A DNA stretch of 47,185 nucleotides, taken from contig NZ_JACJTO010000034.1 of NCBI RefSeq assembly GCF_014698755.1, forward strand, positions 1 to 47,185. Reading direction: 5' to 3'. The notes under the pieces are model-generated. The model did no database searches, had not been told where the DNA came from, and saw only the letters and a list, made by a program, of their open reading frames with translations. Positions 12,355 through 25,727 of the stretch are shown here, in pieces. Position numbers and translations under genes: made by a program. The DNA is from Aphanizomenon flos-aquae FACHB-1287 (GTDB lineage: Bacteria; Cyanobacteriota; Cyanobacteriia; Cyanobacteriales; Nostocaceae). Position 1 is the first letter of the stretch; each line of letters starts with the position of its first letter.

Positions 12355-13667
<1,313 letters not shown>

Positions 13668-15827
13668 CTATTTAGATGCTTGTAGCTGATTTGGCGTTTT
13701 TCTCCAGCTAATACTAGATGCACCGACTGTGACTAAAATCACTCCTATGATTTGGGTAATATTTAGAGATTCTTGTAGCATTAAACCAGCAAAAATTACT
13801 GTTAGAATAGGGACTGTAGCTCCAATTAAGGATGAAATATGAGTACCTAATTTACGGATGCCAAAATTATTGAATAAGTAACCACACAAGGTTAAGACAC
13901 CTAGTATAAACGCACTTAATACTAATTCAAGGGCATTAGATGGATTAATTGTTAAACCTAAATTACTGGGTAAGGGTATAATTAAACAGATAAAACTTAA
14001 TATTAACATAGTAGTGAATTGAATTAAAGCTGAAGATACGGGATGTAGTTTAAGTTTAGTAGCACATATTCTGGTGACAACGAGATAAATTGCAAAGGCT
14101 ATGCCAGCTAGAATAGCTGTAGTGCCTCCCAATGAGATATTATTCATACCTGACTGATTACCCAAAATTAACAGTTCACCGCAGAAAACCGCTGCTATTG
14201 ACCCTGTCACCAATAAATTAGGACGTTCCCGAAATAGAAACCAGGACAAAAATACGCTCATTACCGGATAGATAAAAAAGAGGGCGATTGCCATTCCTGT
14301 TGTGACTTCACCAATAGCAACATAAATAAATACCTGTGATACAAATAATAAACAACCGCTAATTACTGACAAAAATAAAGCCTGTTTGGTTTTGTTCTGA
14401 CTAGGATTTGCATTTGCTCGTAGTGAAGTCAATAAATCTTCTAATTCTTGCCAAATACGCGGATGTAATATAGGTGATAAAAGTAACATTAATGGTACAA
14501 CCACTAATAAACGCAACATTAAAATTAAGAAAATATTACCCAAAGTCGGCAGAATTAACTGCTGCGTTGACAATTCTCCCAAGGAATTAGAAGCTGTCAG
14601 GAAAATCCCTTTAATTGCTACATTATAAAGAGACGAAACCACGGTAGACACAGAGATCAACAAAAAACCCATTTGTAATTCTGACCAGTTGGGAGATGTG
14701 CGGGATCTTAGTTGTCTGGGAGTTATTTGTAGATTGGGAGTTGTTTTGTCTTTAGAAGTGCTTTCCCGTCTTAATTTTGGGGTTGGGGGTCGTCCCGTTG
14801 ATAAATTAGGAGTTAAAACAGAAGGTGGTTCAGGTGTGATATGTTCCAGGGATGGTGCAATTAATACCTGAGAATTTAAGACAGCACTAAGTTCAGGGTG
14901 TGTGTTCGTCGGTGGTAAATCTGGACTAATGAAAGAACTGGATTCCGAATTTTGATCAGTTTGTATTGCTGTCGGTAAATCTGGACTTATAAAAGAACTG
15001 GGTTCAGGGATTTTATCTGTTGGTGAAGATAATATAATCGCATTAGCGGCTGATGTAGAATCAGGATGTGGTGATCCATGATCCATTAAAGGTCTTGGTG
15101 GGGATTTTTCCGTAGAACCATTTTGAGTAGAACCATTTTGATAAATTATGGCTTCACCGCGCAGGTTATCAGCTAATTGCAAAACCGTGGGTGCGCCCTC
15201 CGTTATTACCTTGACAGAAGTAGCATCTTGATTTTTTTCTACCTGACTACGGAGACGATTGACAAATTCCGCTAATATTGCCTCCCCTTGCTGTTGTTGA
15301 CTATACATCCGCGACAACTGTTGGGAAAGATCACCTTGATAGTCTTTGAGTTCTTGTAACAGCGAACTAAAAGCAATAGTTACAGAATCATCCAGGCTAC
15401 TTAGCATATTAGTAACATTTTGTCCAATTTCATGAACAGCATGATTATCTAATTGAGGATTTTGCAGCGCGGACGAATCAGAAGAGTTATATTCTACGGC
15501 TTGAGTGGCTAAAGTTTTCAGAGAGGATTGCAATTGGGAAGATATGTGTTTAGCTAAAACCTCTGCTAATTGACGAATTAGTACCTGTTGCTCAGTGATT
15601 TGTCGTGATTGTTGTAAATTTTCTTTTTCCTCAATTAATCTTTGAATATCGCTAGATAAGCGGTTTTTCTCAATTTCTAGTCGTTTTACGTCTTCCTGTA
15701 ACGACCTCAACAGATTTTGTTGGAGATTTTCTAAATCCTCAACTACATCCCATAAAGCATTTTCAGCAGCTCTGGATAGCTCACCTCTAATGCGTGGATT
15801 TTCTGGTCGCTTCTCAAATCGCCCCAT
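13668..15827 (-). CDS. EamA/DMT-family transporter with long coiled-coil N-terminal extension
   Basis: A 719-residue fusion. Residues about 20-115 are a strongly heptad-like coiled coil rich in Leu, Glu, Gln and Lys. Residues 120-215 are helical and Gln-rich. Residues 230-380 form a Ser/Pro/Thr-rich linker with a repeated SSFISPDLP segment. From about residue 386 to 710 comes a ten-helix DMT transporter with two EamA halves (for example FFIYPVMSVFLSWFLFRE and GATVPILTVIFAGLMLQE). Plain EamA exporters are about 300 residues. The substrate is unknown; family members export amino acids, purines or other metabolites. It lies directly upstream of hetR on the same strand, so a role in filament biology is possible but only by proximity. 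Confidence 0.85.
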   Translation of the reverse strand: MGRFEKRPENPRIRGELSRAAENALWDVVEDLENLQQNLLRSLQEDVKRLEIEKNRLSSDIQRLIEEKENLQQSRQITEQQVLIRQLAEVLAKHISSQLQSSLKTLATQAVEYNSSDSSALQNPQLDNHAVHEIGQNVTNMLSSLDDSVTIAFSSLLQELKDYQGDLSQQLSRMYSQQQQGEAILAEFVNRLRSQVEKNQDATSVKVITEGAPTVLQLADNLRGEAIIYQNGSTQNGSTEKSPPRPLMDHGSPHPDSTSAANAIILSSPTDKIPEPSSFISPDLPTAIQTDQNSESSSFISPDLPPTNTHPELSAVLNSQVLIAPSLEHITPEPPSVLTPNLSTGRPPTPKLRRESTSKDKTTPNLQITPRQLRSRTSPNWSELQMGFLLISVSTVVSSLYNVAIKGIFLTASNSLGELSTQQLILPTLGNIFLILMLRLLVVVPLMLLLSPILHPRIWQELEDLLTSLRANANPSQNKTKQALFLSVISGCLLFVSQVFIYVAIGEVTTGMAIALFFIYPVMSVFLSWFLFRERPNLLVTGSIAAVFCGELLILGNQSGMNNISLGGTTAILAGIAFAIYLVVTRICATKLKLHPVSSALIQFTTMLILSFICLIIPLPSNLGLTINPSNALELVLSAFILGVLTLCGYLFNNFGIRKLGTHISSLIGATVPILTVIFAGLMLQESLNITQIIGVILVTVGASSISWRKTPNQLQASK

Positions 15828-16174: not shown

Positions 16175-17428
16175 TTAGAAAATTGCCATTAGGCAAACAA
16201 AAATAGTAGCACTAAAGGCAGCGCTGATAGGAATTGTAATTAACCAGGCCGCAGCGATATTTTGGATAGTGGAAAATTTTATTGATTTAATATTTTGTAC
16301 AACTGCAATGCCCACAACTCCACCAACAAGGGCGTGGGAAGTAGAAACAGGTAAACCTAAGCGAGAAGCCAGTAAAATAGTGATAGCTGTGGCCAATTCC
16401 GCACAAAATCCACTACTAGGTTCTAGAGGGATAATATTTTCACCAATAGTAGCAATAACTTTTTTACCCCAAGCAGCTAAACCTGCCACAATTCCCATTG
16501 CACCGAGAACCAGAATCCAGAGAGGAATCGTTAGTTGATCATTGGGGACTCTACCCTGTTGATGAATATAAGAAATTATTGCTAGGGGAGCAATGGCATT
16601 ACCAACATCATTAGAACCATGGGCAAAAGCCACAAAGCAAGCGCTCAAAACCTGAAAATTGGCAAATAAACCTTGAATTGTATTTTCAATTCGACCATCT
16701 GCTAATTGTCGCCAACTAATCAAAGTCAAGCTAACTGCCGCCATTCCAGTGATAAATAGGCTGATGTCATGGGGAGGAATATGTAAATTTCCCTGTTCTG
16801 GTAAAAACTGATTCAGAGATTGAATGATTGTGGGGAGAACAATAAGTCCAAATACACTCAAGAGTAGGGTGCTTAACCAGGGAATCCATTCCTGTAACTG
16901 TAATAGGGGATGGGGTTGGTTAAAAATCCAGTGCCGAATCAGACTATACAAACTTAGGGCAATAACTCCACTGATAATCGGTGTTAAAATCCAGCCAATG
17001 GTAATTAAACCAATGGATGACCAATCTATTGCCTCTATTCCTAATGATACCCAACTAAAGCCAGCGATCGCTCCCACGACGGCATGAGATGAAGAAACGG
17101 GCAAACCTCTAGCTGTGGCAATTTGTAACCACACCCCAGAGGTGAGAAGTACCGAAATCATTCCCATAGCTAAAGTTTGTGGTGTCCCAGCGAATAAGGC
17201 TGGATTAGCTATTTTTGTGCCAAGGGTGGAAGTTACCTCTTGTCCAAATAAGACAGCACCAAGAAACTCTAACACCCCAGCAATAATGATGGCCTGTTCG
17301 AGGGTAATGGCCTGAGAACCCACCGAAGTACCCATGGCATTAGCAACATCATTTGCACCCAAATTCCAGGCGACGTAGAAGGCTAAGATGGCGACTATCG
17401 CGGTTTGTATGTCCATAAAATCAATCAT
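16175..17428 (-). CDS. PiT-family inorganic phosphate transporter
   Basis: Low-affinity phosphate (metal-phosphate/H+ or Na+) symporter of the inner membrane. The 417-residue protein has the duplicated PiT signature: WNLGANDVANAMGTSVGS near residues 21-38 and AHGSNDVGNAIAPL near 265. Each is followed by a repeat with (L/G)PVSSSHA or LPVSTSHALVGG. About 10-11 hydrophobic segments are present and the central loop is short. Met1 (17428) and Met5 (17416) are both possible starts. No PhoU-like (DUF47) gene is adjacent. Sulphate or other oxyanions are possible substrates in this family. Confidence 0.92.
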   Translation of the reverse strand: MIDFMDIQTAIVAILAFYVAWNLGANDVANAMGTSVGSQAITLEQAIIIAGVLEFLGAVLFGQEVTSTLGTKIANPALFAGTPQTLAMGMISVLLTSGVWLQIATARGLPVSSSHAVVGAIAGFSWVSLGIEAIDWSSIGLITIGWILTPIISGVIALSLYSLIRHWIFNQPHPLLQLQEWIPWLSTLLLSVFGLIVLPTIIQSLNQFLPEQGNLHIPPHDISLFITGMAAVSLTLISWRQLADGRIENTIQGLFANFQVLSACFVAFAHGSNDVGNAIAPLAIISYIHQQGRVPNDQLTIPLWILVLGAMGIVAGLAAWGKKVIATIGENIIPLEPSSGFCAELATAITILLASRLGLPVSTSHALVGGVVGIAVVQNIKSIKFSTIQNIAAAWLITIPISAAFSATIFVCLMAIF

Positions 17429-18161: not shown

Positions 18162-18395
18162 TTATCCATTTAAGCTTCTGCGACCACTACCTCGATGAGG
18201 ATTGGGCTTTTCGGGTTGATTGGGGCTGGGTTTGGATTTATCAGCCAGGTGGAAATCCTGGTCTAATAAAGATGAAAGCTGGTAATCGGACTTAGCTGTT
18301 GACAGAGCGGAAAAATGAGTCTGTACTGCTTTGCAGTTAAAAGCTAAGGAGCCACATACCAGACTCGATACTAAAAGTGAAATGGCAGCACGCAT
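18162..18395 (-). CDS. patX: PatX-type RGSGR peptide precursor, heterocyst inhibitor
   Basis: A 77-residue protein with a hydrophobic Sec-type N-terminus (about residues 1-22), a variable Ser/Asp-rich middle, a Pro/Lys/Asn-rich segment, and near the C-terminus HRGSGRR, with RGSGR at residues 68-72 (bases 18180-18194). RGSGR is the exact pentapeptide of PatS and HetN that binds the HetR hood and blocks differentiation. The layout of secretory leader plus HRG(S/T)GR close to the C-terminus is that of PatX, described from heterocystous and other filamentous cyanobacteria. The only Met is the start. A TCCGGA promoter element lies upstream. PatS itself is much shorter (13-17 residues) and lacks a classical leader. 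It lies 5 kb from hetR on the same strand. The inhibitory role is inferred. Confidence 0.93.
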   Translation of the reverse strand: MRAAISLLVSSLVCGSLAFNCKAVQTHFSALSTAKSDYQLSSLLDQDFHLADKSKPSPNQPEKPNPHRGSGRRSLNG

Positions 18396-18429
18396 AGTAG
18401 ATGTCTATTTTAGAACTCTCTACTTCACT

Positions 18430-18458
18430 AATACTCTACTTTTATATATCTATCCGGA
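18430..18458 (-). promoter_or_regulatory. Candidate DIF-type promoter of patX
   Basis: On the minus strand TCCGGA (18458-18453) lies 57 bp before the patX start codon and is followed after a 17-18-bp spacer by AGTATT/GTATTA, a weak -10. TCCGGA is the consensus -35-like core reported for HetR-dependent, heterocyst-associated start sites, including RGSGR genes. The element falls in the 105-bp gap between the FAD oxidoreductase gene and patX, where a dedicated promoter is expected. Confidence 0.6.
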
Positions 18459-18500: not shown

Positions 18501-20243
18501 TTATAATTCTTCGAGATGCTCAATAAGTAACCAATTTCCGGAAAAATTTGGCCTCCCCCAAATCTTGAGCATTTTTGCTGGAGGAAAAGCTTGTAATTGC
18601 TGGTCTATATGCGATCGCAATGTAACAAGCTGCCAATTTTTTGTAGTTAAATTGGTTTCATTTGTAATATTAAATTGGTAATTTTGGTAATCTAGTGGGT
18701 AGAAATTGCCTGTGAAGCAGTTAAGGTCGAATTTGTTGTCTGACTTTACTGAAACACAAGGACAGTTACCATCGTCAGGATAGGCTTCTGGATGATCTAA
18801 ATAATAAGTTTGCCAGTATAACCAATCGGGATGATGAGTTAATAAGTTAAACAGGGGAACAATTAGGCTAGGTGCAGTTTGGTCTGTCAATAATGCAGCT
18901 TGCAAAATTTTCACTGATAAATCTCTGGGCTGACATTGTAGCAGAATACAAAGAGAGGCTGCCATACCTGCGGCTTGACCAATTCCCATGACTACTGGTT
19001 GAAGTCTTGTACACCCGTTAGCGATATGGGAAACGGAAATGTTTTTTTCGCAAACTAAAAAACCATCTGTGGTGGTGGGAATCAGAGCGCGATAAGGGAT
19101 AGTAAAGGGCGTTCCGGTCCATCTTCCACCCCAACGGATAGATTTAGATTGTAGTAAAAATTCTACACCAGGATAATGATGATCATTGGCATAGTTACCG
19201 ACAGCGATAGCATCAGGAAATATTGATGCGGTTTTACTGTTCGCTAAAGGCAAAATATCCTGTTCAGAAATGGTTGTTAAGCCTACCAAACGGCGACTTT
19301 CCCGATAATAGGGATGGAGAGCAAAGGCGGAGTTAGCATGAGGAAAAAGGTTTTCTGCTAATCCGTAACGCTGACCAAACTGAGTTTGAATGAAATGGGC
19401 AAAATTCCGACTGTGCCAGTAACATTCTTGCACAAATTCCTGCTTTTTGCCATCTATATCTAGTAACCGATTGGCATTTTGGCAGTAATCGTTGCCTGCA
19501 ATAGGCCAGTTAATCATAAATCTATCTGCTGGTAAGCGTCCATAGTTCAAAAATTTTTCTGGACTATAGTGATCCCAAGCTGTTGTAAACTGGGATGGAT
19601 CATAATTAGGGGCTGGGGTAATTGCTGGGGCGTTACTGTCCCCAAAGTCTTGCATGACTACTACCCAAGTCGGCGCTTGTACTGGATAGGTTTGGACTAG
19701 GGAGTTAAATGTTTCTGGGGCGCTGGGTTCTCCCCATTCTGACTGTAATTCCCAACCCCAACGGTGAGGGACTTCTCCTAAGGCTAATAAGTCTCCTAAT
19801 TCTGTGCCGTCCAGAATAATTTTGGCGTTGATGGTAAAATTGGCGAAGCGTACACCTGTGATACAGTCTTGGGTTCGCAATACTTCTAAAGGAATTTGTC
19901 CCGAAATCCATTGGAGATTAGGTAATTCTCGCACCCAATCGGCAAATATTTCTGCACCTATGCGCGGGTCATAACTGAAGAAACTCACCCAACTATGATC
20001 CAGTCCTCCTGGTTGTCTGCGTTGCAATTCCTGTAAAAAAGCACCCCATAACCCTGTTTGAAAGGCCTGTAATTCGTTTCCGTCTGGTGCGGATACACCG
20101 GCGGAGGTAAGCATTCCTCCTAACCAGGGAAATTCACTTACTAAGATGGTTTTTACACCTTGTCTCGCTGCTTGAATAGCGGCTGCTGTGCCGCCGGTGC
20201 CACCACCGACAACTAGGACATCGGTTGTATAGGTTTGATTCAT
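18501..20243 (-). CDS. FAD-dependent oxidoreductase (FAD_oxidored family)
   Basis: A protein of about 580 residues with an N-terminal Rossmann dinucleotide fold: VLVVGGGTGGTAAAIQAARQG, with the GxGxxG run at residues 13-18, then an acidic strand end and the WLGGMLTSAG segment typical of the FAD_oxidored (pfam12831-like) group. The conserved IILDGTELGDLLAL and later GNYANDHHYPG and GIGQAAGMAAS segments support FAD binding. The substrate is unknown. The start is placed at the ATG at 20243 because the FAD motif then lies 10 residues in; a frame extends upstream to 20300. It is divergent from the MidA-type methyltransferase gene and is followed, same strand, by patX. Confidence 0.85.
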   Translation of the reverse strand: MNQTYTTDVLVVGGGTGGTAAAIQAARQGVKTILVSEFPWLGGMLTSAGVSAPDGNELQAFQTGLWGAFLQELQRRQPGGLDHSWVSFFSYDPRIGAEIFADWVRELPNLQWISGQIPLEVLRTQDCITGVRFANFTINAKIILDGTELGDLLALGEVPHRWGWELQSEWGEPSAPETFNSLVQTYPVQAPTWVVVMQDFGDSNAPAITPAPNYDPSQFTTAWDHYSPEKFLNYGRLPADRFMINWPIAGNDYCQNANRLLDIDGKKQEFVQECYWHSRNFAHFIQTQFGQRYGLAENLFPHANSAFALHPYYRESRRLVGLTTISEQDILPLANSKTASIFPDAIAVGNYANDHHYPGVEFLLQSKSIRWGGRWTGTPFTIPYRALIPTTTDGFLVCEKNISVSHIANGCTRLQPVVMGIGQAAGMAASLCILLQCQPRDLSVKILQAALLTDQTAPSLIVPLFNLLTHHPDWLYWQTYYLDHPEAYPDDGNCPCVSVKSDNKFDLNCFTGNFYPLDYQNYQFNITNETNLTTKNWQLVTLRSHIDQQLQAFPPAKMLKIWGRPNFSGNWLLIEHLEEL

Positions 20244-20315
20244 AATATAGCGTTCTGTCTGATGTCTGAATATATCTTGGTTAAAAGTATTAGTTAACAA
20301 TCAAGGGTAAATTTT

Positions 20316-23243: not shown

Positions 23244-25727
23244 ATGACGAATACAGGGACATTTGATGCTTCTTTATTAACTGGTACTGCTACCATTAAT
23301 GCCAATTTAGTAACTCAATCTGTAGTTATTAATACTGGGATTACTGGTTTACTACCTTTAACTCTTGGCGTTACTGGTATCGGTAACGTTATCGGTACAG
23401 CCAATAATGACACAATTACTGGAAATGATCATGATAATAATCTAGCAGGAGGTAACGGTGATGACATTTTAACCGGAAATGGTGGTAATGATACCGTTAG
23501 TGGTGGAACTGGTAATGATACTTTAATCGGTGGTACAGGTAATGATAGTCTGGACGGTGGTACTGGTAATGATACAGCCGATTATAGTGCCATAGGTCAA
23601 GCTATTACCCTAAAACAAACAGGAGTAGTTACCAAAGGTACAGCAGGAACAGACCAACTGGTTAATGTAGAGAATATTATCGGTGCTACAGGTAGAACCA
23701 ACATTATTGATGCTTCCACTGCTACGGGAACTGCTACAATTAATGTCAATTTAGCGACTAAATCTCTAGTTGTTAATACTTGTGTTATTGCTTTCCCTAC
23801 GTTGACTTTTGGTGTTACTAATTTTGCTACTGTTATTGGTACTGTCAATAATGACACAATTGCTGGAGATAATGGTAATAACACACTAATAGGGAATGCC
23901 GGTAATGACATTTTAACCGGCAATGGTGGTAATGATACCGTTAGTGGTGGAACTGGTAATGATACTTTAATCGGTGGTATAGGTAATGATAGTTTGGACG
24001 GTGGTACTGATAATGATACAGCCGATTATAGTGCCATAGGTCAAGCTATTACCTTGTTAACAACAGGAACTGTTACCAAAGGTGCAGCAGGAACAGACCA
24101 ACTGGTTAATGTAGAGAACATTATCGGTGCTACAGGTCTAACTAACATTATTGATGCTTCCACTGCAACTGGAACTGCTACAATTAATGCCAATTTAGCG
24201 ACTAAGTCTCTAGTTTTTAATACTGGTGTTAGCACTTTCCCGACTTTGACTTTTGGTGTTACTAATTTTGTTACTGTTATCGGTACAGCCAATAATGACA
24301 CAATTACTGGAGATAATGGCAATAATACACTAATAGGGAATGCCGGTAATGACATTTTAACCGGCAATGGTGGTAATGATACTGTTAGTGGTGGAAATGG
24401 TAATGATACTTTAGTCGGTGGTATAGGTAATGATAGTTTGGATGGTGGTGCAAATACTGATACAGCGGATTATAGTGCCATAGGTCAAGCTATTACCCTC
24501 AAACCAACGGGAGTAGTTACCAAAGGTACAGCAGGAACAGACCAACTGGTTAATGTAGAGAACATTATCGGTGCTACAGGTCTAACCAACATTATTGATG
24601 CTTCCACTGCTACGGGAACTGCTACAATTAATGCCAATTTAGCGACTAAGTCTCTAGTTGTTAATACTGGTGTTATTGCTTTCCCTACGTTGACTTTTGG
24701 TGTTACTAATTTTGCTACTGTCATCGGTACAGCCAATAATGACACACTTACTGGAGATGATGGCAATAATACACTAATAGGAAATGGCGGTAATGACATT
24801 TTAACCGGCAATGGTGGTAATGATACCGTTAGTGGTGGAACTGGTAATGATGCAATTAACGGTGGTTTAGGAAGCGACACGGTTGATTATAGCAGTTTTA
24901 CCGAAGCAATTACCCTGTTAGCGAGTGGAATCGTTAATAAAGGCTCTTTTGGCACTGATACAATTGTAGACGTAGAAACTGTAATTGGCGCTACAGGTCA
25001 ATCTAACACTATTGACGCATCAACGGGAACTGCTACTACTACATCCCTCAATGTTAATCTAGGTAATAATAGCCTGATTGTTAACGGACTACCTTCACCG
25101 ATTAATTCTATCACCTTAAATGTTCAGAATTTCCTAAATGTTTATGGTACTACTCAAAACGACACAATCACAGGTAATAACCTCAGTAATTTGTTAGCTG
25201 GAAATGCTGGCAATGATACTATTCAAGGTAATGATGGAGATGATGGGTTGTTTGGTGGTGATGGTAATGATAGCTTATTAGGTGGTGTTGGTCAAGATGT
25301 TCTTTTGGGTGAGTTTGGTAATGACTTTCTCTTTGGTGAAGTAGGTAATGATTTACTATTTGGAGATGATGGTAATGATCAGTTGTATGGTGGTGATGGG
25401 TTAGATGAATTATACGGGGGTATAGGCGCGGATTCTCTTTATGGAGGCAATGATAATGATGTCCTCTGGGGAGAAGATGGTAATGATATTCTCAATGGTG
25501 GTAATGGCAATGATATTTTTGTAATTGCACGAGGTTCTGCTGATATCGTTCAAGACTTCCAAGATGGATTTGACCGTATTGGCTTAGGTGGGGGTTTACT
25601 ATTTAGTCAATTGACAATTTCATCTTTAGGTACTAATACTTTAATCAGAAGTAGTGGTCAAATTCTTGCTACTTTGCAAAATGTTAGTTCTACGTTGATT
25701 ACTAATACTGATTTTACTGTAGTCTAA
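23244..25727 (+). CDS. RTX/hemolysin-type calcium-binding repeat protein
   Basis: An 827-residue secreted-type protein. It is made of blocks of the nonapeptide GGxGxDxLx (for example GGNGDDILTGNGGNDTVSGG), which form Ca2+-binding beta-rolls. Between these blocks lies a 148-residue module, seen three times nearly identically and once diverged: TADYSAIGQAITL, VNVENIIGATG, NIIDASTATGTATIN. The DNA of the modules repeats with a 444-bp period. No N-terminal signal peptide is seen; such proteins leave by type I secretion using C-terminal signals, and the last 75 residues (FVIARGSADIVQDFQDGFDR onward) match the usual C-terminal region. No enzymatic domain is present, so a surface or extracellular role is likely. 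No transporter gene is adjacent. Confidence 0.9.
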   Translation: MTNTGTFDASLLTGTATINANLVTQSVVINTGITGLLPLTLGVTGIGNVIGTANNDTITGNDHDNNLAGGNGDDILTGNGGNDTVSGGTGNDTLIGGTGNDSLDGGTGNDTADYSAIGQAITLKQTGVVTKGTAGTDQLVNVENIIGATGRTNIIDASTATGTATINVNLATKSLVVNTCVIAFPTLTFGVTNFATVIGTVNNDTIAGDNGNNTLIGNAGNDILTGNGGNDTVSGGTGNDTLIGGIGNDSLDGGTDNDTADYSAIGQAITLLTTGTVTKGAAGTDQLVNVENIIGATGLTNIIDASTATGTATINANLATKSLVFNTGVSTFPTLTFGVTNFVTVIGTANNDTITGDNGNNTLIGNAGNDILTGNGGNDTVSGGNGNDTLVGGIGNDSLDGGANTDTADYSAIGQAITLKPTGVVTKGTAGTDQLVNVENIIGATGLTNIIDASTATGTATINANLATKSLVVNTGVIAFPTLTFGVTNFATVIGTANNDTLTGDDGNNTLIGNGGNDILTGNGGNDTVSGGTGNDAINGGLGSDTVDYSSFTEAITLLASGIVNKGSFGTDTIVDVETVIGATGQSNTIDASTGTATTTSLNVNLGNNSLIVNGLPSPINSITLNVQNFLNVYGTTQNDTITGNNLSNLLAGNAGNDTIQGNDGDDGLFGGDGNDSLLGGVGQDVLLGEFGNDFLFGEVGNDLLFGDDGNDQLYGGDGLDELYGGIGADSLYGGNDNDVLWGEDGNDILNGGNGNDIFVIARGSADIVQDFQDGFDRIGLGGGLLFSQLTISSLGTNTLIRSSGQILATLQNVSSTLITNTDFTVV
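23581..24912 (+). repeat. 444-bp tandem module within the RTX gene
   Basis: Three consecutive modules of 444 bp (148 codons) starting near 23581, 24025 and 24469 are nearly identical in long stretches. A more diverged fourth begins near 24885. The very low divergence points to recent duplication or ongoing gene conversion. Confidence 0.85.

Follow-up and report, generated by a model that had tools for sequence, protein, structure and literature searches.

Genes and sites around patX

The window (the whole 47,185-nucleotide stretch of DNA analysed, from Aphanizomenon flos-aquae FACHB-1287) carries on one strand the heterocyst regulator gene hetR, two transporter genes, the small gene patX and an oxidoreductase gene. 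Positions are those of the window; negative numbers count from the patX ATG.

12355..13254, minus strand: hetR (299 aa), encoding the master regulator that the peptide presumably targets (NF009718)
13668..15827, minus strand: gene with an EamA transporter domain, between patX and hetR (Pfam)
16175..17428, minus strand: gene for a phosphate transporter of the PHO4 family, between patX and hetR (Pfam)
18162..18395, minus strand: patX coding sequence for 77 aa, beginning with ATG (NF047413, 92.4 bits)
18180..18197, minus strand: codons for HRGSGR, residues 67-72, the presumed inhibitory hexapeptide, invariant in nine aligned PatX
18327..18395, minus strand: N-terminal leader, residues 1-23, a putative Sec-type signal peptide recognised by eye
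18396..18423, minus strand: conserved stretch from -28 to -1, a probable 5' untranslated leader judged from column conservation
18431..18437, minus strand: AGAGTAT at -42 to -36, site of a conserved TaAGTAt element and likely the -10 region
18453..18458, minus strand: TCCGGA at -63 to -58, predicted by sequence match to be a DIF1 (DIF+) promoter box
18501..20300, minus strand: FAD-dependent oxidoreductase gene, the next gene upstream of patX (PF12831)

A six-frame reading of the window gives a 77-codon reading frame on the minus strand with the product MRAAISLLVSSLVCGSLAFNCKAVQTHFSALSTAKSDYQLSSLLDQDFHLADKSKPSPNQPEKPNPHRGSGRRSLNG. The preliminary description of this DNA had placed a PatX-type precursor of 77 residues here, leaving its strand unstated, and its account of the frame, of the motif and of the family is borne out. 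RGSGR occupies residues 68-72 in the context HRGSGRR, and none of the window's six frames contains another RG[ST]GR. Against the NCBIfam equivalog model NF047413 (heterocyst_PatX) the product scores 92.4 bits (E 2.1e-26) where the cut-off is 30, and no Pfam model exceeds its threshold. PatX is a small secreted protein, and the peptide released from it keeps adjacent cells of a cyanobacterial filament from differentiating into nitrogen-fixing ones. The N-terminus is hydrophobic and conserved among nine aligned PatX. In PatS, by comparison, the motif forms the very end and no such secretory leader is known; the PatX product departs from that kind of ending, that of a very short peptide closing in (E)RGSGR, in having a histidine before the motif and RSLNG after it. 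Elhai and Khudyakov, in 2018, are reportedly where PatX comes from, being cited by others as its source.

Conservation of the precursor

A profile search with NF047413 matches 210 of 217 genomes of the same family, 209 of them above the cut-off, and none of 14 control genomes, while HetR is matched in 214 of the 217. Seven family genomes are without a PatX match, five of which are at least 90% complete and six of which match HetR, so that by this model PatX is not universal. Within the nine aligned PatX, the leader residues M1, R2, A3, I5, S6, L8, S11, G15, L17, A18 and F19 are invariant, as is the whole of HRGSGR. We also collected loci from named relatives, keeping the best 80 of 88; these were retrieved by patterns in the leader and not by the motif, a manner of sampling that leaves out relatives too distant in the leader. 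RGSGR is found in 80/80 of them (best 80 of 88). Two of the three conditions on which the earlier reading stood or fell, homologues outside the strain and a conserved leader and tail, hold. It had also singled out the RGSGR form as meriting attention. This part does not hold: the best 80 of 88 relatives all share it, which rules out RGSGR as an unusual form of PatX. The available part of PMC7761841 likewise has RGTGR in a few PatX alleles only, with the PatX of PCC 7120 as the exception to the usual RGSGR; the strain therefore differs from PCC 7120 by carrying the common form.

The promoter box is held in place with similar strictness, TCCGGA beginning at -63 in 79/80 relatives' loci and at -62 in the remaining one (best 80 of 88). 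Across 57 distinct rows in register, mean information amounts to 1.66 bits per column from -28 to -1 and 1.62 from -42 to -29, against 0.92 from -57 to -43. In excerpts of the literature on patS, transcription starts about 35 bases past TCCGGA. If patX transcripts started at the same distance, the stretch from -28 to -1 would be untranslated leader, and on the strength of its conserved columns we consider this probable. In the patX leader, AGTAGA (-29 to -24) can pair with TCTACT (-6 to -1), all six pairs being present in 32 of 58 distinct rows by an uncontrolled count, on which we base no claim of a stem. Expression from the patX DIF1 promoter is dependent on hetZ, according to the portion of PMC7377430 at hand.

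HetR, the presumed target

The hetR product scores 592 bits against NF009718 (cut-off 489) and 137.8 bits against the hood domain model PF18460. The protein aligns to solved HetR chains with no gap and has R223, E253, E254, D256 and D270, so that the five hood residues that the preliminary description had named as kept are all present by sequence. The choice of E253, E254, D256 and D270 as hood residues is that of the preliminary description; a role for R223 is given in the excerpted text of PMC7476756. At 591.7 bits, the HetR score is the lowest among 16 members of the genus, the others lying between 599 and 613.

A further TCCGGA stands at 13393, upstream of hetR. We do not claim it as a DIF1 promoter of hetR because nothing corresponds to it in the 1200 bases that precede the gene in nine Dolichospermum loci from six genomes.

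Linkage and gene order

The hetR and patX frames are separated by 4,907 bases and both lie on the minus strand, in agreement with the earlier statement that activator and inhibitor are encoded some 5 kb apart on one strand. Should this linkage be regarded as remarkable, as that statement had implied? We counted distances in 39 of 65 genomes assembled in at most 10 contigs (65 by eye), namely those where the places of both genes were among the matches listed; in the other 26 the place of patX or hetR fell outside the matches listed or there was no patX match. Since the matches listed are the best-scoring ones, the sample leans towards high PatX and HetR scores. The two genes lie within 20 kb of one another in 23 of these 39 low-contig genomes, 20-100 kb apart in three and further apart in 13. 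Linkage is thus common in the family and is ruled out as an unusual feature.

Orientation shows a different picture. Nineteen of the 23 linked genomes have the genes divergent and four have them on the same strand, all four belonging to the genus of the strain (Dolichospermum, going by its named relatives). Both genes share a contig in 10 of the 16 genomes of this genus, and in 10/10 of these the two share a strand, with patX 4.9-6.4 kb upstream of hetR; the remaining six, with the genes on separate contigs, stand outside this count. The named loci (best 80 of 88), which span at most 10 kb of DNA per side, include hetR in 12 cases, five same-strand and seven divergent, and the five same-strand loci are all from Dolichospermum or from Anabaena of the Dolichospermum genus. 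That 68/80 (best 80 of 88) have no hetR in the span says little, because divergent distances often exceed 10 kb. For PCC 7120 we take hetR to be alr2339, and by the rule of gene naming it would point the opposite way to patX (asl2332). By gene names, then, the two genes are opposed in PCC 7120, whereas they share a strand in FACHB-1287.

What might have brought the two genes onto one strand? The FAD-dependent oxidoreductase gene lies upstream of patX on the same strand in 79/80 loci (best 80 of 88), a pairing that holds even where the retrieved DNA contains no hetR. Elsewhere in the family the order hetR-EamA-PHO4 points away from the oxidoreductase-patX pair; in Dolichospermum this pair is reversed. 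As judged from gene order, the pair appears to have been flipped in the Dolichospermum lineage, and the shared strand of patX and hetR would follow from its having been turned round.

With both genes now on one strand, they might be imagined to form a single transcription unit. The constancy of the arrangement (10/10 same-contig genus members) would fit this idea, as would non-heterocystous Leptolyngbya BL0902, where patX likewise precedes hetR on one strand and the two, being adjacent, are apparently co-transcribed (PMC11298460, in excerpt). In FACHB-1287, however, they are about 4.9 kb apart, separated by two other genes, and patX is followed by a gap of some 0.7 kb. We regard a common unit as very improbable.

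An even more basic doubt is whether the frame might be a chance one that happens to carry RGSGR. Such coincidences do arise, inasmuch as the genome has 15 coding sites for RG[ST]GR, 10 of them with no start codon ahead of the motif in frame. A chance frame would nonetheless hardly match NF047413 so far above the cut-off, nor would its leader, tail, promoter and neighbouring gene all be conserved; family model and conservation together rule it out to near certainty. Judged by its sequence, the frame is an ordinary member of the already described PatX family, with a peptide, a promoter and a place near hetR that are usual for its relatives, and the preliminary description read it correctly and with care.

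Other inhibitor precursors

If PatX is ordinary, is it accompanied by the other RGSGR-bearing inhibitors? The genome is 99.75% complete. A degenerate DNA pattern for RG[ST]GR has 52 matches in it, of which the 15 mentioned truly encode the motif and five have an in-frame start codon ahead of it. These five are PatX (77 codons), NusG (218), a 472-codon protein and two short frames (67 and 35 codons). The short frames do not look like secreted precursors; the 67-codon frame (contig C6, position 4346), with RGSGR 18 residues past a possible start, shows no secretory leader by eye and was set aside. NusG (contig C12, position 33466; Pfam NusG and KOW) holds KRGSGRGRG, and in this cytoplasmic protein the motif is probably due to chance or to a basic linker. 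The 472-codon protein has no Pfam match of its own, and its residues 1-295 are 46% identical to a recombinase-like frame of the nifH element described below. An HRGSGR at position 160406 of contig C34, considered as a second PatX tail, was rejected because it sits in a CRISPR spacer, judged from the surrounding repeats. The repeat of this array, called CRISPR by eye, is GTTTCAATCCCTAATAGGGAGTAAGAGAAATTGCAAT. Among the 15 coding sites we found no credible inhibitor precursor besides PatX.

PatS was sought through its ending. A pattern for ERGSGR has no match in the strain's own genome (two for its reversed control), nor does the version that requires a stop codon directly after the motif. Short frames ending in ERGSGR are seen elsewhere, and the degenerate pattern with stop, which admits other residues, matches 157 of 217 genomes of the family; this is an upper bound, as the reversed control also matches about 78 of 217 by eye. 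Within the genus the pattern with stop matches 3/16 genomes against 4/16 for the control, the letters, read by eye, being ERGTGR in two and ERGCGR in one. The two ERGTGR-stop matches (genomes G047 and G048) end frames of 13 and 11 codons and were not counted as PatS. HetN was sought by motif alone, with no HetN protein as query and, in the strain's own genome, with no positive control for HetN; in six genomes the ERGSGR pattern fell at 36 places, and none of nine loci picked by eye lay in a long SDR-like frame.

These results suggest that the strain may encode no inhibitor of the RG(S/T)GR kind other than PatX, since no other credible precursor occurs among the 15 coding sites. The point is not new. 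For Anabaena sp. 90, the excerpted 2012 report likewise did not detect patS or hetN and proposed a frame with a C-terminal RGSGR, ANA_C10293, as a suppressor of HetR. We infer that ANA_C10293 is patX.

A divided nifH and further observations

In the FACHB-1287 genome, about 6.3 kb of inserted DNA interrupts nifH between codons 137 and 148 (contig C3, 90295-97487). The insert carries a 975-aa frame of the MmeI restriction-modification type and, on the minus strand near its right end, a 475-aa frame with a weak phage-integrase match below the Pfam cut-off. The insert is similar to the 5.9-kb element that is excised from nifH in Anabaena sp. 90, as far as that element is described in the available text, which characterises Anabaena sp. 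90 as a nitrogen-fixing, bloom-forming organism with such elements. Because nifH is split as it is in Anabaena sp. 90, FACHB-1287 is, by analogy, very likely heterocyst-forming. The genome may contain another such element, given that the 472-codon frame (contig C22, position 2172) shares 46% identity, over 293 residues, with that recombinase-like frame of the nifH element. Elsewhere in the window, an 827-aa frame at 23244-25727 is made up of calcium-binding repeats of the RTX type (PF00353, 234 bits, 13 stretches).

Discussion

We consider patX with high confidence to be a standard gene of a Dolichospermum-type heterocystous cyanobacterium, which by analogy would act along the HetR-inhibitor route of PCC 7120. 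Upon loss of nitrogen, differentiating cells would turn on patX from its DIF1 (TCCGGA) promoter by way of HetR and HetZ. The 77-residue precursor would be exported by its putative signal peptide, and an extracytosolic peptidase, which in Nostoc PCC 7120 is PatP, would trim it to roughly the HRGSGR peptide. That peptide would reach neighbouring cells, bind the HetR hood and stop HetR from binding DNA. In this sequence of events the gene, the motif, the promoter box, the conservation and the HetR target residues come from the present analysis; export, cutting, binding and promoter control are carried over from PCC 7120 and would have to proceed in the same way here.

For PCC 7120, excerpts from PMC12756182 report that the PatX hexapeptide HRGTGR binds HetR (88 nM), which then no longer binds DNA, that export of PatX is required and that PatP processes the precursor. 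Published extracts also describe asl2332 of Anabaena/Nostoc sp. PCC 7120 as likewise a small precursor with a secretory leader, RG(S/T)GR and a DIF1 promoter, and have the RGSGR peptide of PatS, a motif it has in common with PatX, bind HetR. Two observations weigh against a PatX-HetR explanation that holds everywhere. First, in Leptolyngbya BL0902 the effects of patX are in appearance largely independent of hetR, in the part of PMC11298460 concerned. Second, six of the seven family genomes lacking a PatX match do match HetR.

A broader reading would be that Dolichospermum, having lost PatS as well as the HetN that bears RGSGR, sets its heterocyst pattern through PatX alone, and that the flip of the oxidoreductase-patX pair in the same lineage brought patX onto the strand of hetR and closer to it. 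We put this forward tentatively, deeming it a little less probable than its opposite. A competing explanation is that PatX, albeit conserved, is not the main pattern inhibitor, this part being played by a diverged PatS, by a HetN whose motif has changed or by another molecule. Inactivating patX alone in PCC 7120 caused no discernible change in nitrogen-depleted medium, according to the extract from PMC7761841, and a HetN with a changed motif would escape a motif search of the kind used here; but PatX alone looks like a precursor among the 15 coding sites of a nearly complete genome, no ERGSGR coding site was matched there, and patS and hetN went similarly undetected in Anabaena sp. 90. On balance we think this explanation unlikely, though by no means negligible.

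In the literature searched, mainly journals without subscription, we found no paper that treats PatX, hetR and Dolichospermum together. With seemingly a single RGSGR inhibitor in the genus, the role of PatX in patterning could be tested there without the masking by PatS that is known from PCC 7120. If PatX does pattern alone, Dolichospermum would represent a naturally occurring HetR circuit with just one inhibitor.
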